Positions 30,153 through 34,611 of a stretch of DNA of 35,916 nucleotides are shown here, piece after piece; position 1 is the first letter of the stretch, and every line of letters starts with the position of its first letter. Position numbers and translations under genes: made by a program. Source of the DNA: Pseudomonadota bacterium (GTDB lineage: Bacteria > Bdellovibrionota > Oligoflexia > Oligoflexales > Oligoflexaceae); assembly GCA_029556045.1 (NCBI GenBank), contig JAKQGS010000346.1, positions 1-35,916 on the forward strand, read 5' to 3'. Below the pieces are notes generated by a model that was not told the DNA's origin, made no database searches, and worked only from the letters and a program-made list of their open reading frames with translations.

Positions 30153-31160
30153 TCAAATCGATAGCATCTCGCAGACCTTACCCCAGCTCTCATCCTTGCG
30201 TCCGCCCACCTGAAACAGGTACCGGGATGTGGTCCGCAGGTCGCTGTGACCCAGGAAGCTGCTGATCAGCCGCACATCATCGCCCGCCTCAGCCCGCAGC
30301 ATCGCTGCTGTGTGACGCAGGTCGTGCACCCGCACCAGGTCGGGATCCAGCCCGGCCATCCGAGCGTACTTTTTGACCAGGTCCCGCACATAACGGCTGC
30401 TGAGCGGACGCCCAGGGTCGTGCTCCACACCCGGGAAGTGCCTGGCATGATCGCTCAGTGCGGTAAAGATGTAATCCTCAGCGTGCATATCACCCAGCCG
30501 TGAAGACGAAGACAACCAATCGGTTATGGCCAAGAAAACAGCAGCAGGCAACTCGTAACGACCACTCGTACACCCCTTGCCCTGCCACCGGTACCAGATC
30601 CGCCCGTCACGCTGCTCCAGGTCACCCCAGCGCAGGTTGATCACCTCGCTGTTGCGGCGGCCGGTGAGCACAAAAGCCAGGATCAGCGCATAATCCCGCT
30701 TGCCCTGGGCTGTGGTCCGGTCGATCGCATCCAGCAGGGCCTTGACCGAGTCAACACTCAGCGGATGGGCCTTGCCATAGGCCAGGACCTTGGGCCGCTG
30801 GACTGCCTTGGCCGGGTTGTAGTGGTGCAGGGGCATCTCGACCCCGTCCACAAAATCCATGTACTGCTGCTTGGCATAGGAAAAGAAACTGGAAACGGCA
30901 GCCAACCGCTGCTGGACCGTGCTCTCAGAATATCCCTTGCGCAGCTCGGCCGCCCAGGCCTCGATGTCCGCCGAACCCATCTCCCAGGGCATCTTGCCCG
31001 TGAAGTCCATCAGCATCTCCCAGGCCAGCTCATACGCCCGGCGGGTGTTGCCCGCCTTGCTCGACAGCCACAACCCAAAGGCGTTGGCCCACTTGTCATT
31101 GGTGGTGGCCTCACGCACATCCAGCCGCTGCGCCTCTTTCACATTCAATAAGTTCTCCAT
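30153..31160 (-). CDS. int: Tyrosine recombinase / integrase 1
   Basis: A 335-aa tyrosine recombinase. Residues 20-125 are a SAM-like core-binding domain (LSSKAGNTRRAYELAWEMLM). The catalytic domain has TGRRNSEVINLRW (Arg ~169), HDLRHTAA (His 279, Arg 282), LGHSDLRTTSRYL (His 305, Tyr 314). The strong AAAAGGAG precedes the ATG. It could catalyse integration or excision of this phage, or be an acquired second recombinase. It belongs with the leftward regulator at 31199-31459, whose transcript would run into it. Confidence 0.92.
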   Translation of the reverse strand: MENLLNVKEAQRLDVREATTNDKWANAFGLWLSSKAGNTRRAYELAWEMLMDFTGKMPWEMGSADIEAWAAELRKGYSESTVQQRLAAVSSFFSYAKQQYMDFVDGVEMPLHHYNPAKAVQRPKVLAYGKAHPLSVDSVKALLDAIDRTTAQGKRDYALILAFVLTGRRNSEVINLRWGDLEQRDGRIWYRWQGKGCTSGRYELPAAVFLAITDWLSSSSRLGDMHAEDYIFTALSDHARHFPGVEHDPGRPLSSRYVRDLVKKYARMAGLDPDLVRVHDLRHTAAMLRAEAGDDVRLISSFLGHSDLRTTSRYLFQVGGRKDESWGKVCEMLSI

Positions 31161-31559: not shown

Positions 31560-31913
31560 ATGAATAGCAAATCAGAATTCGCCAGTTGGCTTGAACTTCA
31601 ATTTATTAACTGGATGCGTGAAAGGGGTGAAGTTACAACGCAGCGTGAATTTGCAGAATACCTTGGTCTTGATCAAGTTCAGCTAAGTCATTACATTAAT
31701 GAACGTCGGAAAAAGCCTGATAAAGCATCTCTGGAAAAGATCGCCGCCAAACTCGGCCCTGAGATCTACGATGTGCTGGGCCTGGCCCGGCCTGACCCCC
31801 AGTTGAAACAACTCACGGCGGTGTGGCATCTGCTCAGCCAGGACCAGATCAGGCGGATCCTGGCGATTGCATTTGAGAATAATCACACAACCTCCGTACC
31901 CACGGATGACTGA
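31560..31913 (+). CDS. HTH regulator, rightward (CI-like)
   Basis: A 117-aa helix-turn-helix protein: EFASWLELQFINWMRERGEV, then TTQREFAEYLGLDQVQLSHY (recognition helix) and INERRKKPDKASLEKIAAKL, which resemble short phage repressors. No peptidase domain is present. The ATG at 31560 is chosen by protein pattern; the earlier ATG at 31542 has AGGA touching it. Transcribed from the rightward promoter near 31502 and reading towards the attP/integrase 2 region. Confidence 0.75.
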   Translation: MNSKSEFASWLELQFINWMRERGEVTTQREFAEYLGLDQVQLSHYINERRKKPDKASLEKIAAKLGPEIYDVLGLARPDPQLKQLTAVWHLLSQDQIRRILAIAFENNHTTSVPTDD

Positions 31914-32237
31914 CCGGCGTGCGCACGGATGGGAATACCGGCAACCTCACGGATACTGGCAATCACCTGCCCATGAGGACGCCGGTTTGATTTACGGGAA
32001 TAACGGTTCGGGTCCGTGAGGCCAGCGGTTCAAATCCGCTCGCCCCGACCTCAGTCCCCACGGATGACCACATCCACCCATCCGTGGGGACACAGGTTTG
32101 CAAAAACCACACATTCCCCATAACCTCCGTGCACACGGATACCAAAGGCAGGTGATAAAAAAAAGTCTGATAATAATTATCGGAACTGGATTTTTTATTA
32201 TCGGAACTGCAATCCACCAACCGGAGGCCTCACGGAT
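31899..32237. promoter_or_regulatory. attP-like region with CACGGAT arm sites
   Basis: The motif CACGGAT occurs at 31901, 31924, 31948, 32059, 32134 and 32231, plus ATCCGTG at 32080. They flank the tRNA-Pro 3' half at 32002-32050. GTCCCCACGGATG / CATCCGTGGGGAC (32054-32066, 32079-32091) is a 13-bp perfect inverted repeat. This is the layout of an attP with a core and arm-type integrase sites; integrase 2 begins at its right edge and its start codon lies in the last site. The 320-bp interval contains no ORF that I support. Confidence 0.75.
32002..32050 (+). pseudogene. tRNA-Pro(CGG) 3' half, attP core
   Basis: Sequence from the anticodon arm to the end of a tRNA-Pro: ACGG-TTCGGGT-CCGT (anticodon CGG, G37), T-arm AGCGG-TTCAAAT-CCGCT, acceptor 3' strand CGCCCCG-A. 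The acceptor 3' strand demands a C1-G72 tRNA, which is the tRNA-Pro hallmark. The 5' half (it would start CGGGGCG) is absent. Phages integrating into tRNA genes carry exactly this piece to restore the target, so the predicted attB is a host tRNA-Pro(CGG) gene. Confidence 0.85.
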
Positions 32238-33171
32238 GAACGCATTCAATTTAACCCTTTCCCAGGTGATCGAAGGCTATAACCTCGCCGCCCAGGCACG
32301 CGCGCTCAGCGTCCACACCATCAGGGATTACAACAACACTTTCAATCAATTCAAAAAACATCTCGGATCAGACCCCTATTTTTCAACCATCACCAAAAAG
32401 CACATCCGCCAGTTCCTGGCAGCCCAAAAACATCTCTCCAATAAGACCCTGCTCAACTATCACACCGGACTGAGCGCGCTCTATACCTGGGCCGTGGCTG
32501 AAGGCTACGCCCACGAGCATCACATGCACGGGATTGACCGGCCCAGGCCCGAGCAGCGCACCATCCAGCCGATCCCCCTCGAGCACATCCGGGCCATGCT
32601 GTCCGTGCTCGGCCAATCCAAAACCTACACCCGGCCGGGCAAGCGCGCCAGCACCCACAGCACACCCTGCGCCAACCGCAACCGCGCCATCATCCTCACC
32701 CTGCTGGATACCGGCCTGCGCGCCTCGGAGCTGTGCAACGTGAAGATCCACCAGGTGGATCTCGAACAGCGCAAGATGAAGGTGTTTGGCAAGGGATTCA
32801 AAGAGCGCATGCTACCCTTCTCAGCGCGCACCGGCCAGGCCATCTGGCGCTACCTGGCAGCGGACCGCAAGGACGATCCCATGGGCCAGCACCTGTTTGC
32901 CACCCAAAACGGCGGGCCGCTCACCCGCACCCACCTGCGCCACATCCTCGAGCGGATCGCCGCCCGGGCCGAGCTCCCCCATTACACGCCGCACGACTTC
33001 CGCCACACCTTCGCCGTCAATTACCTGCGCAATTACCCCAACATCTACACGCTGCAGGAGATGCTCGGCCACACCACGCTCGACATGGTCAAGCGCTACC
33101 TGGCCATCAGCCAATCCGACCTGGATGACGCCCACCGCCACGCCTCACCGGTTGAGAAGTGGGGGTTGTAA
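32236..33171 (+). CDS. Tyrosine recombinase / integrase 2
   Basis: A 311-aa XerC-like tyrosine recombinase. The SAM-like N-terminal domain spans residues 5-100 (LSQVIEGYNLAAQARALSVH). The catalytic domain has DTGLRASELCNVK (Arg ~162), GKGFKERMLPF (Lys ~186), HDFRHTFA (His 253, Arg 256), LGHTTLDMVKRYL (His 279, Tyr 288). The ATG at 32236 has GGAGG 8 nt upstream and starts in the last CACGGAT site. It is adjacent to the tRNA-Pro attP core, so it is the stronger candidate for integration at tRNA-Pro. It is only distantly similar to integrase 1. Confidence 0.9.
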   Translation: MNAFNLTLSQVIEGYNLAAQARALSVHTIRDYNNTFNQFKKHLGSDPYFSTITKKHIRQFLAAQKHLSNKTLLNYHTGLSALYTWAVAEGYAHEHHMHGIDRPRPEQRTIQPIPLEHIRAMLSVLGQSKTYTRPGKRASTHSTPCANRNRAIILTLLDTGLRASELCNVKIHQVDLEQRKMKVFGKGFKERMLPFSARTGQAIWRYLAADRKDDPMGQHLFATQNGGPLTRTHLRHILERIAARAELPHYTPHDFRHTFAVNYLRNYPNIYTLQEMLGHTTLDMVKRYLAISQSDLDDAHRHASPVEKWGL

Positions 33172-33232
33172 TCGGTATTTAGTGCCATCCTAAAATATCG
33201 GCCATATATATTAATTCTTTTTATGACCGGCG

Positions 33233-33249
33233 TATAATTATTAACACAT
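33233..33249 (+). promoter_or_regulatory. Promoter -10 box before the tRNA
   Basis: TATAAT at 33233-33238, 12 bp before the mature tRNA start. A -35 TTAATT (33211) is weak at 16-bp spacing. It makes the tRNA gene plausibly self-standing. Confidence 0.5.
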
Positions 33250-33321
33250 GCACCCGTAGCTTAATGGAAAAAGCTTTTCCTTCGCAGGGATAAGATATCG
33301 GTTCGAATCTGGTCGGGGGCA
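33250..33321 (+). tRNA. tRNA-like gene, anticodon CGC (would-be Ala)
   Basis: 72-nt cloverleaf: acceptor GCACCCG/CGGGGGC with an A3-G70 mismatch; D-arm GCTT...AAGC; anticodon stem TTTCC/GGATA with one T-T mismatch; loop TTCGCAG giving anticodon CGC; T-arm ATCGG-TTCGAAT-CTGGT; no encoded CCA. The alanine identity pair G3-U70 is missing, so normal alanylation is doubtful. It has a -10 box in front. It could be a functional phage tRNA, a decayed integration relic or a tRNA-like RNA of another job. Confidence 0.6.
33273..33288 (+). repeat. 16-bp inverted repeat arm in the tRNA anticodon arm
   Basis: GCTTTTCCTTCGCAGG, the reverse complement of 33380-33395. It covers the end of the D stem, the 5' anticodon stem and the whole anticodon loop. 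Confidence 0.95.
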
Positions 33322-33343
33322 TGTATTGAACCCATACAAATTA

Positions 33344-33372
33344 TTGCAATTTTCCCAAGAATAAACTATAAT
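33344..33372 (+). promoter_or_regulatory. Promoter of the small RNA
   Basis: -35 TTGCAA (33344-33349), exactly 17 bp, -10 TATAAT (33367-33372). Start predicted at A33379, one base before the tRNA-complementary segment. Confidence 0.75.
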
Positions 33373-33378
33373 GAGTTC

Positions 33379-33480
33379 ACCTGCGAAGGAAAAGCCGGTT
33401 GAACCGGTAGAGAGGCAAGGAGAAAATTCTTACCCTCCCCCTTCTCAGCAGCCGCTAAAAAGGCGGCTGCTCCCTTTTAA
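33379..33480 (+). ncRNA. Small RNA complementary to the neighbouring tRNA anticodon arm
   Basis: Predicted ~100-nt RNA with its own promoter and terminator and no ORF. Its first 16 bases after the predicted start (CCTGCGAAGGAAAAGC, 33380-33395) pair perfectly with the anticodon arm of the tRNA encoded 60 bp upstream. A CCGG-TTGAA-CCGG hairpin follows, then the terminator stem. It may sequester or protect the tRNA, or the two arms may be integration-site inverted repeats. No known RNA family recognised. Confidence 0.55.
33447..33480 (+). terminator. Terminator of the small RNA
   Basis: AGCAGCCGC-TAAAAAG-GCGGCTGCT: 9-bp GC-rich stem, 7-nt loop, then CCCTTTTAATTT. Convergent with the minus-strand gene ending at 33496. 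Confidence 0.85.
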
Positions 33481-33495
33481 TTTCCTTATGGAATG

Positions 33496-33990
33496 CTAAA
33501 TATTGTTCACTTTATCATAATGGGCTTTTCGGTTGGTCTTTAATTCCTTAAGTTTCTCTTGAAGTTTTTCTTTTTCAGGCTTTTTTTCAAGTGAAGCAAC
33601 AAACATCAATATTCCAATTATTCCAGGAATTATCAACCCAAAACCAGCGGTAGCACATTCAAGCCCAATCCACAAAGCTACGCCAATACCAGTAATAATC
33701 AAGCCACCAACCAAATATCCTGCTGATGCGTCGATTTGTGTCTGCAAGGTCGCAATTTTCTCGCTAATTTCGTCAATTTCTTTATCTAACCGAGCGATTG
33801 CCAATTCACTTGCTGTGTTATCAACCCCCTTTGACATTGCCTCAAAAACTGGCTTCAAAGATACAATGCCGCCGCTTCTTTTTACAACATGCTCATTACC
33901 GCAATGAGCACAAGCGAAACGATCAATATCTTCAGTAATTTGCAGTTTTCCACTGCATGTTGGACAAGATAAAGTTAAGAATTCAGACAT
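33496..33990 (-). CDS. Zinc-ribbon membrane protein (moron candidate)
   Basis: A 164-aa protein: N-terminal zinc ribbon with CPTC and CAHC pairs (residues 9-33), a coiled coil (ARLDKEIDEISEKIATLQTQ), two adjacent hydrophobic segments (GYLVGGLIITGIGVALWIGL and GFGLIIPGIIGILMFVASL), and a Lys/Glu-rich tail. Base composition is AT-richer than the late genes and it has its own candidate promoter, so it may be expressed from the prophage. Function unknown; such ribbon-plus-membrane proteins occur near envelope stress and defence genes. Confidence 0.75.
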   Translation of the reverse strand: MSEFLTLSCPTCSGKLQITEDIDRFACAHCGNEHVVKRSGGIVSLKPVFEAMSKGVDNTASELAIARLDKEIDEISEKIATLQTQIDASAGYLVGGLIITGIGVALWIGLECATAGFGLIIPGIIGILMFVASLEKKPEKEKLQEKLKELKTNRKAHYDKVNNI

Positions 33991-34033
33991 TTCAACCCTC
34001 TTTTCCCAAAACCACTTAAGTTCGTGTAAGTTA

Positions 34034-34063
34034 ATTATATATGATTTTCCCCATTTGATGTAA
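34034..34063 (-). promoter_or_regulatory. Promoter for the zinc-ribbon membrane protein
   Basis: On the minus strand TTACAT (34058-34063), 18 bp, TATAAT (34034-34039), 45 bp before the ATG at 33990. The -35 is weak. Confidence 0.5.
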
Positions 34064-34073
34064 TATTTATATC

Positions 34074-34166
34074 ATGGATCAACTCTCCACCCCAGAAATC
34101 GTCGTTTATGCGCTGATCGTGATCATTTTCCTGATCGCATACTTTAACTCGCCCGATCCCAGCTGA
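34074..34166 (+). CDS. 30-aa hydrophobic peptide
   Basis: MDQLSTPEIVVYALIVIIFL followed by IAYFNSPDPS: a single membrane helix with polar ends, followed eight bases later by a strong hairpin. Its length and topology resemble type I toxins or KdpF-like peptides. No clear SD is seen (as is common for tightly controlled toxin peptides), and it may be chance; the immediately following terminator supports a short transcript. Confidence 0.45.
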   Translation: MDQLSTPEIVVYALIVIIFLIAYFNSPDPS

Positions 34167-34171
34167 CTCTT

Positions 34172-34204
34172 TAAACCAAAACACCGCCATCCCTGGCGGT
34201 GTTT
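34172..34204 (-). terminator. Bidirectional terminator
   Basis: CACCGCCA-TCCC-TGGCGGTG (34182-34201), 8-bp stem. On the minus strand it is followed by TTTTGGTTT; on the plus strand by TTT. It would end the plus-strand 30-aa gene and the minus-strand structured/tmRNA-like RNA. Confidence 0.8.
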
Positions 34205-34363
34205 GCTATCGTGCCTACTCGTGGTAGGTCGACTAAGATTGCCTTCCATGCCCATTTTACGCTCTTGCTAGCAACCCATTGAGTGTATGGGACAGATTAC
34301 CCTGCATGGTGGGCGGCTATCGTGTACTCACTCCAGTACGGCGCCTTTTCTAAAAAGGCAATC
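34205..34363. ncRNA. Structured non-coding RNA region
   Basis: Nested pairs: GATTGCCTT (34237-34245) with AAGGCAATC (34355-34363), directly continued by CCATGC (34246-34251) with GCATGG (34304-34309); inside, CCCAT/ATGGG (34275-34291). Two GCTATCGTG direct repeats (34205, 34316) each introduce a small hairpin (CCTAC/GTAGG, GTACT/AGTAC). The long-range pairs work on either strand. On the minus strand it would be the 3' extension of the tmRNA-like RNA up to the terminator. Confidence 0.5.
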
Positions 34364-34365
34364 AG

Positions 34366-34512
34366 TGGACGTGGCGGGAATCGAACCCGCGTATGAAGCT
34401 GAGCAGGCGCACCCAACAGGGCTGGTTAAGCTTTAAACGCTGTGCTGCCATGGATCTTCCTGGTACCTGCTCCCACACCAGACGGTTGCTTCATCGAATA
34501 CCTTTCACGCCC
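34366..34512 (-). ncRNA. Compact tmRNA-like RNA (ssrA-like)
   Basis: 147 nt on the minus strand with a tmRNA-type tRNA-like domain: acceptor GGGCGTG / CACGTCC with a G3-U70 pair, the tmRNA-style GGTATTCGAT segment in place of a D-arm, T-arm GCGGG-TTCGATT-CCCGC preceded by AC, discriminator A. Helix 2 ATGAAGC/GCTTCAT is perfect and continues as GAGCAGG/CCTGCTC; CTGGT/ACCAG around the latter makes a possible pseudoknot. A frame ends TAFKA-stop near the position of a tag. Normal tmRNAs are ~350 nt; most of the pseudoknot and tag region is missing, so it may be a reduced tmRNA or an integration-derived remnant. Confidence 0.5.
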
Positions 34513-34518
34513 AAGCTG

Positions 34519-34572
34519 AGATTGCTTCCTTTACAGGACGCAAGCAGTCGTCGCTGCGCTCCTCGCAATGAC
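34519..34572. repeat. Inverted diverged CATTGCGAG repeat
   Basis: GATTGCTTCC ... GCGCTCCTCGCAATGAC, the reverse orientation of the 6250 repeat with a replaced centre. It lies just upstream (minus strand) of the tmRNA-like RNA. Confidence 0.7.
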
Positions 34573-34611
34573 AAAAGTATCTCCTAATCCCTACTCACTA
34601 TTCCCCATTCC

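Follow-up and report, generated by a model that had tools for sequence, protein, structure and literature searches.

An exact inverted copy of a phage tRNA segment spanning the anticodon loop, placed where a putative small RNA would begin and tentatively attributed to template switching

Trans-acting antisense small RNAs of bacteria and phages carry a 5' seed, often lying at the very 5' end, and a Rho-independent terminator. Template-switch (quasipalindrome) mutations yield local inverted arrangements, creating inverted copies and RNA hairpins, as described in the available part of PMC8794818. Phage PAK_P3 makes an abundant RNA of ~100 nucleotides (nt), sRNA2, between two transfer RNA (tRNA) genes, an 11-nt stretch of which is also present in the TpsiC loop of host tRNAs (PMC4933390, in the text available). 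In tRNA-dependent lysogeny, the accessible portion of Guerrero-Bustamante and Hatfull 2024 (PMC10865867) predicts a short attachment core together with a phage tRNA of the attacked isotype. Here we analyse a stretch of 35,916 nt (contig JAKQGS010000346.1, assembly GCA_029556045.1; hereafter the window), in which a phage tRNA gene with the anticodon CGC is followed by a perfect 16-nt antisense copy of part of its anticodon arm, located at the predicted start of a putative small RNA. The observation is confirmed and unusual. In the literature that we searched, as judged by titles and the openings of abstracts, no phage RNA that targets the anticodon arm of a tRNA is described. We tentatively favour an origin of the pair by template switching.

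The segment 33380-33395 is the reverse complement of 33273-33288 at 16 of 16 positions, as the initial annotation had stated, with the arms 91 nt apart and a mismatch flanking the complementarity at each edge. The upstream arm starts with two bases of the D-stem, continues through base 26 and the 5' strand of the anticodon stem, takes in the entire loop and stops after a single base on the 3' side of the stem. The earlier description of an antisense to the anticodon arm is therefore borne out for the 5' strand and the whole loop and needs qualifying for the remainder, the match being asymmetric and including just one 3'-strand base. Across 300 dinucleotide shuffles of 33170-33500, no inverted repeat whose arms are separated by more than 30 nt exceeded 12 nt, a length reached once. 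As a further comparison, 112 ARAGORN-predicted tRNA genes (85 distinct sequences) were taken from the window and 120 loci, with flanks of 400 nt that were full on both sides in 74 of the 85; these loci had been fetched for other reasons and form a nonrandom set, with 30 of the 85 sequences coming from a single candidate-host genome. The longest nearby exact complement is 16 nt for the window's tRNA versus 6-10 nt for the 84 other distinct tRNAs. By a rough estimate, 0.003 inverted pairs of 16-mers within 300 nt would be expected in the whole window. Given that the shuffles reach at most 12 and the other tRNAs at most 10, we reject a chance origin of the pair. The same 16/16 figure gives the putative small RNA a complementarity to its target beyond chance, as expected of an antisense small RNA.

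Along the + strand the order of elements is int2 (a tyrosine integrase gene), the tRNA gene, a promoter-like site, the antisense arm and a terminator-like hairpin (Table 1). The antisense arm begins one base past the predicted transcription start, which is placed seven bases beyond the -10 box, and the hairpin of 10 pairs lies downstream of it. On both points we agree with the initial annotation, the end of the transcript being likewise a prediction. Counting both strands, the whole window has six promoter-like sites with at least 10 of 12 consensus bases, this one included. Between 32400 and 34400 there are three promoter-like sites at the 9/12 level where shuffles give 2.1 on average, and four terminator-like sites where 2.3 would be expected, so that the promoter is less secure than the complementarity. 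When the arm and the terminator are removed, the body of the predicted RNA has a fold z-score of -0.30, no better than shuffles, and the GAAGG of the seed is predicted to pair within the small RNA itself.

Table 1. Coordinates of the features discussed, numbered from the first letter of the window.
Feature	Coordinates	Strand	Remarks
Second tyrosine integrase	30153-31160	-	Counterpart present in related phage
Phage attachment site (attP) core of int2	32003-32049	+	Anticodon arm and 3' half of tRNA-Pro(CGG)
int2, tyrosine integrase	32098-33171	+	PF00589, 1.1e-33; 3' end 78 nt short of 33250
tRNA gene, anticodon CGC	33250-33321	+	Rfam 50.7 bits; ARAGORN gives 33249-33322
Arm 1	33273-33288	+	tRNA positions 24-39 on the cloverleaf, whole anticodon loop included
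Promoter-like site TTGCAA-17-TATAAT	33344-33372	+	10/12 consensus bases, perfect -10 box; predicted start near 33379
Predicted small RNA, 98 nt	33379-33476	+	Fold z-score -3.99 with terminator hairpin, -1.97 without
Arm 2	33380-33395	+	Antisense to arm 1 at 16/16 positions; lies at predicted 5' end
Small hairpin CCGGUUGAACCGG after antisense arm	33395-33407	+	Fold prediction
Intrinsic-terminator-like hairpin, 10 pairs, then CCCTTTTAAT	33447-33471	+	Sequence prediction

On the cloverleaf the phage tRNA shows nonstandard A3:G70 and U28:U42 oppositions, and its CCA end is not encoded. A G3:U70 pair is the identity rule for tRNA-Ala. As this pair is lacking, with A3 standing opposite G70, the phage tRNA can be assigned to alanine by its anticodon only. 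Its Rfam score is low for the range seen in the candidate host, a metagenome-assembled genome (MAG) titled Marinimicrobia bacterium 46_43, in which 3 of 37 tRNA matches score lower; 30 distinct tRNAs from this genome were compared with the predicted small RNA. In energy calculations, which ignore tRNA tertiary structure and modifications, the antisense duplex comes to -28.5 kcal/mol with opening costs of 7.8 and 8.2 kcal/mol, and the first 20 bases of the small RNA score -31.1 kcal/mol with the phage tRNA versus -22.2 kcal/mol with the best of the 30 candidate-host tRNAs. The latter share at most 8 consecutive complementary bases with these 20 (6 for tRNA-Ala(cgc)). Since some of them reach about -22 kcal/mol through gapped pairing, the small RNA may cross-pair with certain host tRNAs. 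Sequestration of a tRNA, which the initial annotation had raised as a function, is nevertheless disfavoured as applied to a host tRNA by the short matches in all 30, the host itself being a candidate only.

The sole close relative that we found is IMGVR_UViG_3300002821_000110 (int2 85%, primase-like protein 86%), which looks like an integrated prophage: the same 47 bases of a tRNA-Val(CAC), running from the anticodon arm to the 3' end, are present at both of its ends. A comparison of window 33170-34600 with the whole of this record gave one match (18 query bases, E 0.3), and the record shows neither the tRNA of the window, nor its small RNA, nor its element like a transfer-messenger RNA (tmRNA), an absence that is only as good as this virus contig. 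No relative with both the tRNA and the antisense element was found in eight scans of viral_contigs, one scan of genome_contigs, or searches of phage and plasmid DNA. A search with the 16-mer returned 16 viral stretches, with predicted tRNAs only in one of them (L002) and no nearby complement above 10 nt. The loci L006, L014 and L016 resemble window 33349-33395 (79.6%, E 1e-4 against 68 loci), which could hint at homology. In L006 and L016, however, the match sits inside an open reading frame (ORF) of 250 residues on the opposite strand, so this resemblance is read as coincidence; the sequence of L014 at this place is nearly the same. An 18-mer from the D-arm was found in four stretches, twice within a predicted tRNA-Arg(tct) and twice outside any predicted tRNA, and no antisense copy above 10 nt was found in these four. 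Scans for exact segments of the small RNA, and for those of the tRNA 3' half, each returned 0 stretches.

The phage collection gave 68 records, among which the 20 listed cover 13-22% of the query at E values of at least 0.09, over tRNA genes where these are annotated. When 33340-33480 was compared with 245 genomes of the candidate-host phylum, 176 had a short match at E<=1, with a best E of 0.0026 per genome, which we read as noise. Among the comparison loci, 33170-33500 had nothing beyond short matches, and no relative of the ORF at 33496-33990 was found. Relatives of the phage exonuclease were recovered from 50 viral loci, with best-segment identities of 27-59% (38% for the top-scoring one). 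Distant integrase relatives, all below 60% identity, number 735 phage and 3803 plasmid records, and the search for relatives of the tRNA pair left these records out.

We propose, with a probability that we put at about 0.48, that the pair is a small local inverted duplication made by a template switch. We infer the switch, as well as transcription of the copy and any consequence for the tRNA, along the following lines. During replication a polymerase would briefly have switched template and copied 16 nt as their reverse complement over a distance of ~100 nt, either from the tRNA gene into the spacer downstream or from that spacer into the tRNA. The copy would then adjoin the promoter-like site, ahead of the terminator-like hairpin, and a small RNA able to pair with the phage's own tRNA may thus begin with it. 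This origin is favoured because the copy is exact, sharp-edged, inverted and local, in all of which it resembles the mutations described in the available part of PMC8794818, and because it is blind to the symmetry of the arm. If the tRNA was the recipient of the copy, its imperfect anticodon stem (U28:U42) would also be accounted for. Consistent with this origin, we found the pair in no other phage, both elements being absent from the related record, and the candidate-host tRNAs do not match the small RNA. Several points weigh against it. No more than one base separates the beginning of the copy from the transcription start predicted for one of the six promoter-like sites of at least 10/12 in the window, and a blind copy would land there, before a terminator-like hairpin, only by luck. 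The event is not directly visible, no relative with the state preceding the copy having been found. The gap between the arms also exceeds the classes counted in PMC8794818, the main one of which, in the portion available, has a source-target spacing of at most 8 base pairs.

A rival reading is a functional antisense small RNA, which the predicted anatomy would fit: the promoter-like site, 5'-terminal complement, hairpin and terminator-like hairpin follow one another as in a typical bacterial small RNA of the trans-acting antisense kind, with the difference that the complement is to a tRNA anticodon arm rather than to a messenger RNA (mRNA) and that the RNA is predicted. Such an RNA, transcribed from 33379, whose seed would pair with positions 24-39 of the phage tRNA or its precursor, could keep the tRNA from decoding, from maturing or from being cleaved in its anticodon loop, and its promoter would then switch tRNA activity. 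The duplex energy, the phage tRNA being the best computed partner, and the fact that GCG, the codon for the anticodon CGC, is the commonest alanine codon in 11 counted phage ORFs (224/586) all point this way. PAK_P3 sRNA2 offers a precedent in that it is a ~100-nt phage RNA beside phage tRNA genes; it was seen by RNA sequencing (PMC4933390, as far as available), whereas the window RNA is predicted only. In our own comparison sRNA2 holds a sense, T-arm-like stretch. As the longest complement of sRNA2 to the neighbouring tRNA-Tyr and tRNA-Gln is only 6 nt (longest sense match 7), it is a precedent for position and not for anticodon-arm antisense, and we rejected it as a second case. Against a functional RNA stand the lack of a relative with both elements in our searches, the internal pairing predicted for part of the seed, the unremarkable fold of the body and the simplifications of the energy model. 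The antisense mechanism of the initial annotation is thus possible on the predicted anatomy, and we hold such an RNA to be on balance unlikely. A combination of the two ideas, in which a dedicated riboregulator masks the anticodon arm of the phage's own tRNA and both elements arose together through a single inverted duplication, from which the tRNA may also have acquired the anticodon arm it has today, appears rather unlikely to us. The complementarity might instead act in cis, a read-through transcript folding its trailer onto the anticodon arm, so that a precursor would yield tRNA only if processed without delay. A TATAAT at 33233-33238, 11 nt ahead of the tRNA gene, no + strand terminator-like site found between the tRNA and 33447, and a minimum-energy fold of 33245-33480 that pairs 15 of 16 arm positions (33274-33288 with 33380-33394) would suit it. 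However, the tRNA would fold ahead of the synthesis of its trailer, and a separate promoter would be unneeded, yet the better promoter-like site is predicted downstream of the tRNA; we consider a cis effect improbable.

The inverted arms could also be recombination sites, as the initial annotation had allowed, serving as the short attP core of a tyrosine integrase directed at a tRNA anticodon arm, with the phage tRNA replacing a disrupted host tRNA. A tyrosine integrase near a lone tRNA gene does recall tRNA-dependent lysogeny (PMC10865867, in its accessible portion), and the site of the second integrase was not found. Comparison of the window, the related phage and genome contig L018 located the site of int2 elsewhere: 44 of the 47 bases of window 32003-32049 agree with a tRNA-Pro(cgg), the whole 3' half included, and the surrounding attP (31901-32237) carries CACGGAT seven times over the two strands together, with 0 copies in 33172-33500 and five more, on one strand, elsewhere. 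Because int2 has this attP, the 16-nt arms are unlikely to be int2 sites, and we disfavour that version. Neither the short core nor the tRNA of the attacked isotype predicted in the available text of PMC10865867 holds for int2. Rather than a short core that leaves the host tRNA unrebuilt, its attP has the whole tRNA-Pro 3' half, which could rebuild the host tRNA, and the CGC anticodon of the phage tRNA differs in isotype from the CGG anticodon arm of the attP. Among the most repeated 7-mers and 8-mers of 33170-33500 (12 each) there is no arm-type repeat beyond the arms themselves, the terminator hairpin and A/T-rich words. With, in addition, at most 8 consecutive bases shared between the region and the 30 candidate-host tRNAs and no alanine determinant in the would-be replacement tRNA, recombination sites are distinctly improbable. 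Finally, the claim that there is no ORF is not strictly correct, since an ATG frame of 42 codons is open from 33371 to 33499, and the complementarity would be incidental if this were a protein gene. Its ATG overlaps the -10 box and, preceding the predicted start, would lie outside the proposed RNA; the frame crosses the terminator-like hairpin, shows no ribosome-binding site by inspection, and yielded no homologue, no candidate sharing three 5-residue words with it. We regard a protein gene as very improbable.

Beyond the pair, a direct terminal repeat of 141 bases at the window ends makes it probable that the window is a complete circular phage genome of ~35.8 kb. This small phage has two tyrosine integrases, and the related phage has counterparts of both. 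In the related prophage the int2-type integrase is found at tRNA-Val(CAC), versus tRNA-Pro(CGG) in the window attP, so that this integrase family appears able to use the same stem with more than one anticodon. In L018, a contig of the Marinimicrobia bacterium 46_43 MAG, positions 2587-2936 hold tRNA-Pro(cgg) followed by a coding stretch for the last 71 residues of an int2-type integrase, likely a relic of an old integration. A near-identical hairpin (GCCGGTGGCYTTGTAACCGGC) precedes each of two small post-integrase ORFs of the related phage (L017, 1692-1712 and 1919-1939). The window further contains a 150-nt tmRNA-like element at 34363-34512 on the - strand, which matches the Rfam tmRNA model over positions 1-374 (39.5 bits, cut-off 47) and has a predicted fold of -57.3 kcal/mol with a 7-pair acceptor stem and a second helix of 7 pairs; it may represent either a miniature tmRNA of the phage or a relic that has shrunk.

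If the pair is only the scar of a template switch, it is a natural example of one mutation that puts a perfect antisense seed at a predicted transcript start. If it is functional, it would represent a phage RNA directed at a tRNA anticodon arm, that is, a riboregulator with a tRNA rather than an mRNA as its target. Such a riboregulator would switch phage decoding or shield the anticodon loop, and could be relevant to the control that phages exert over their own tRNAs or to their resistance against anticodon nucleases.
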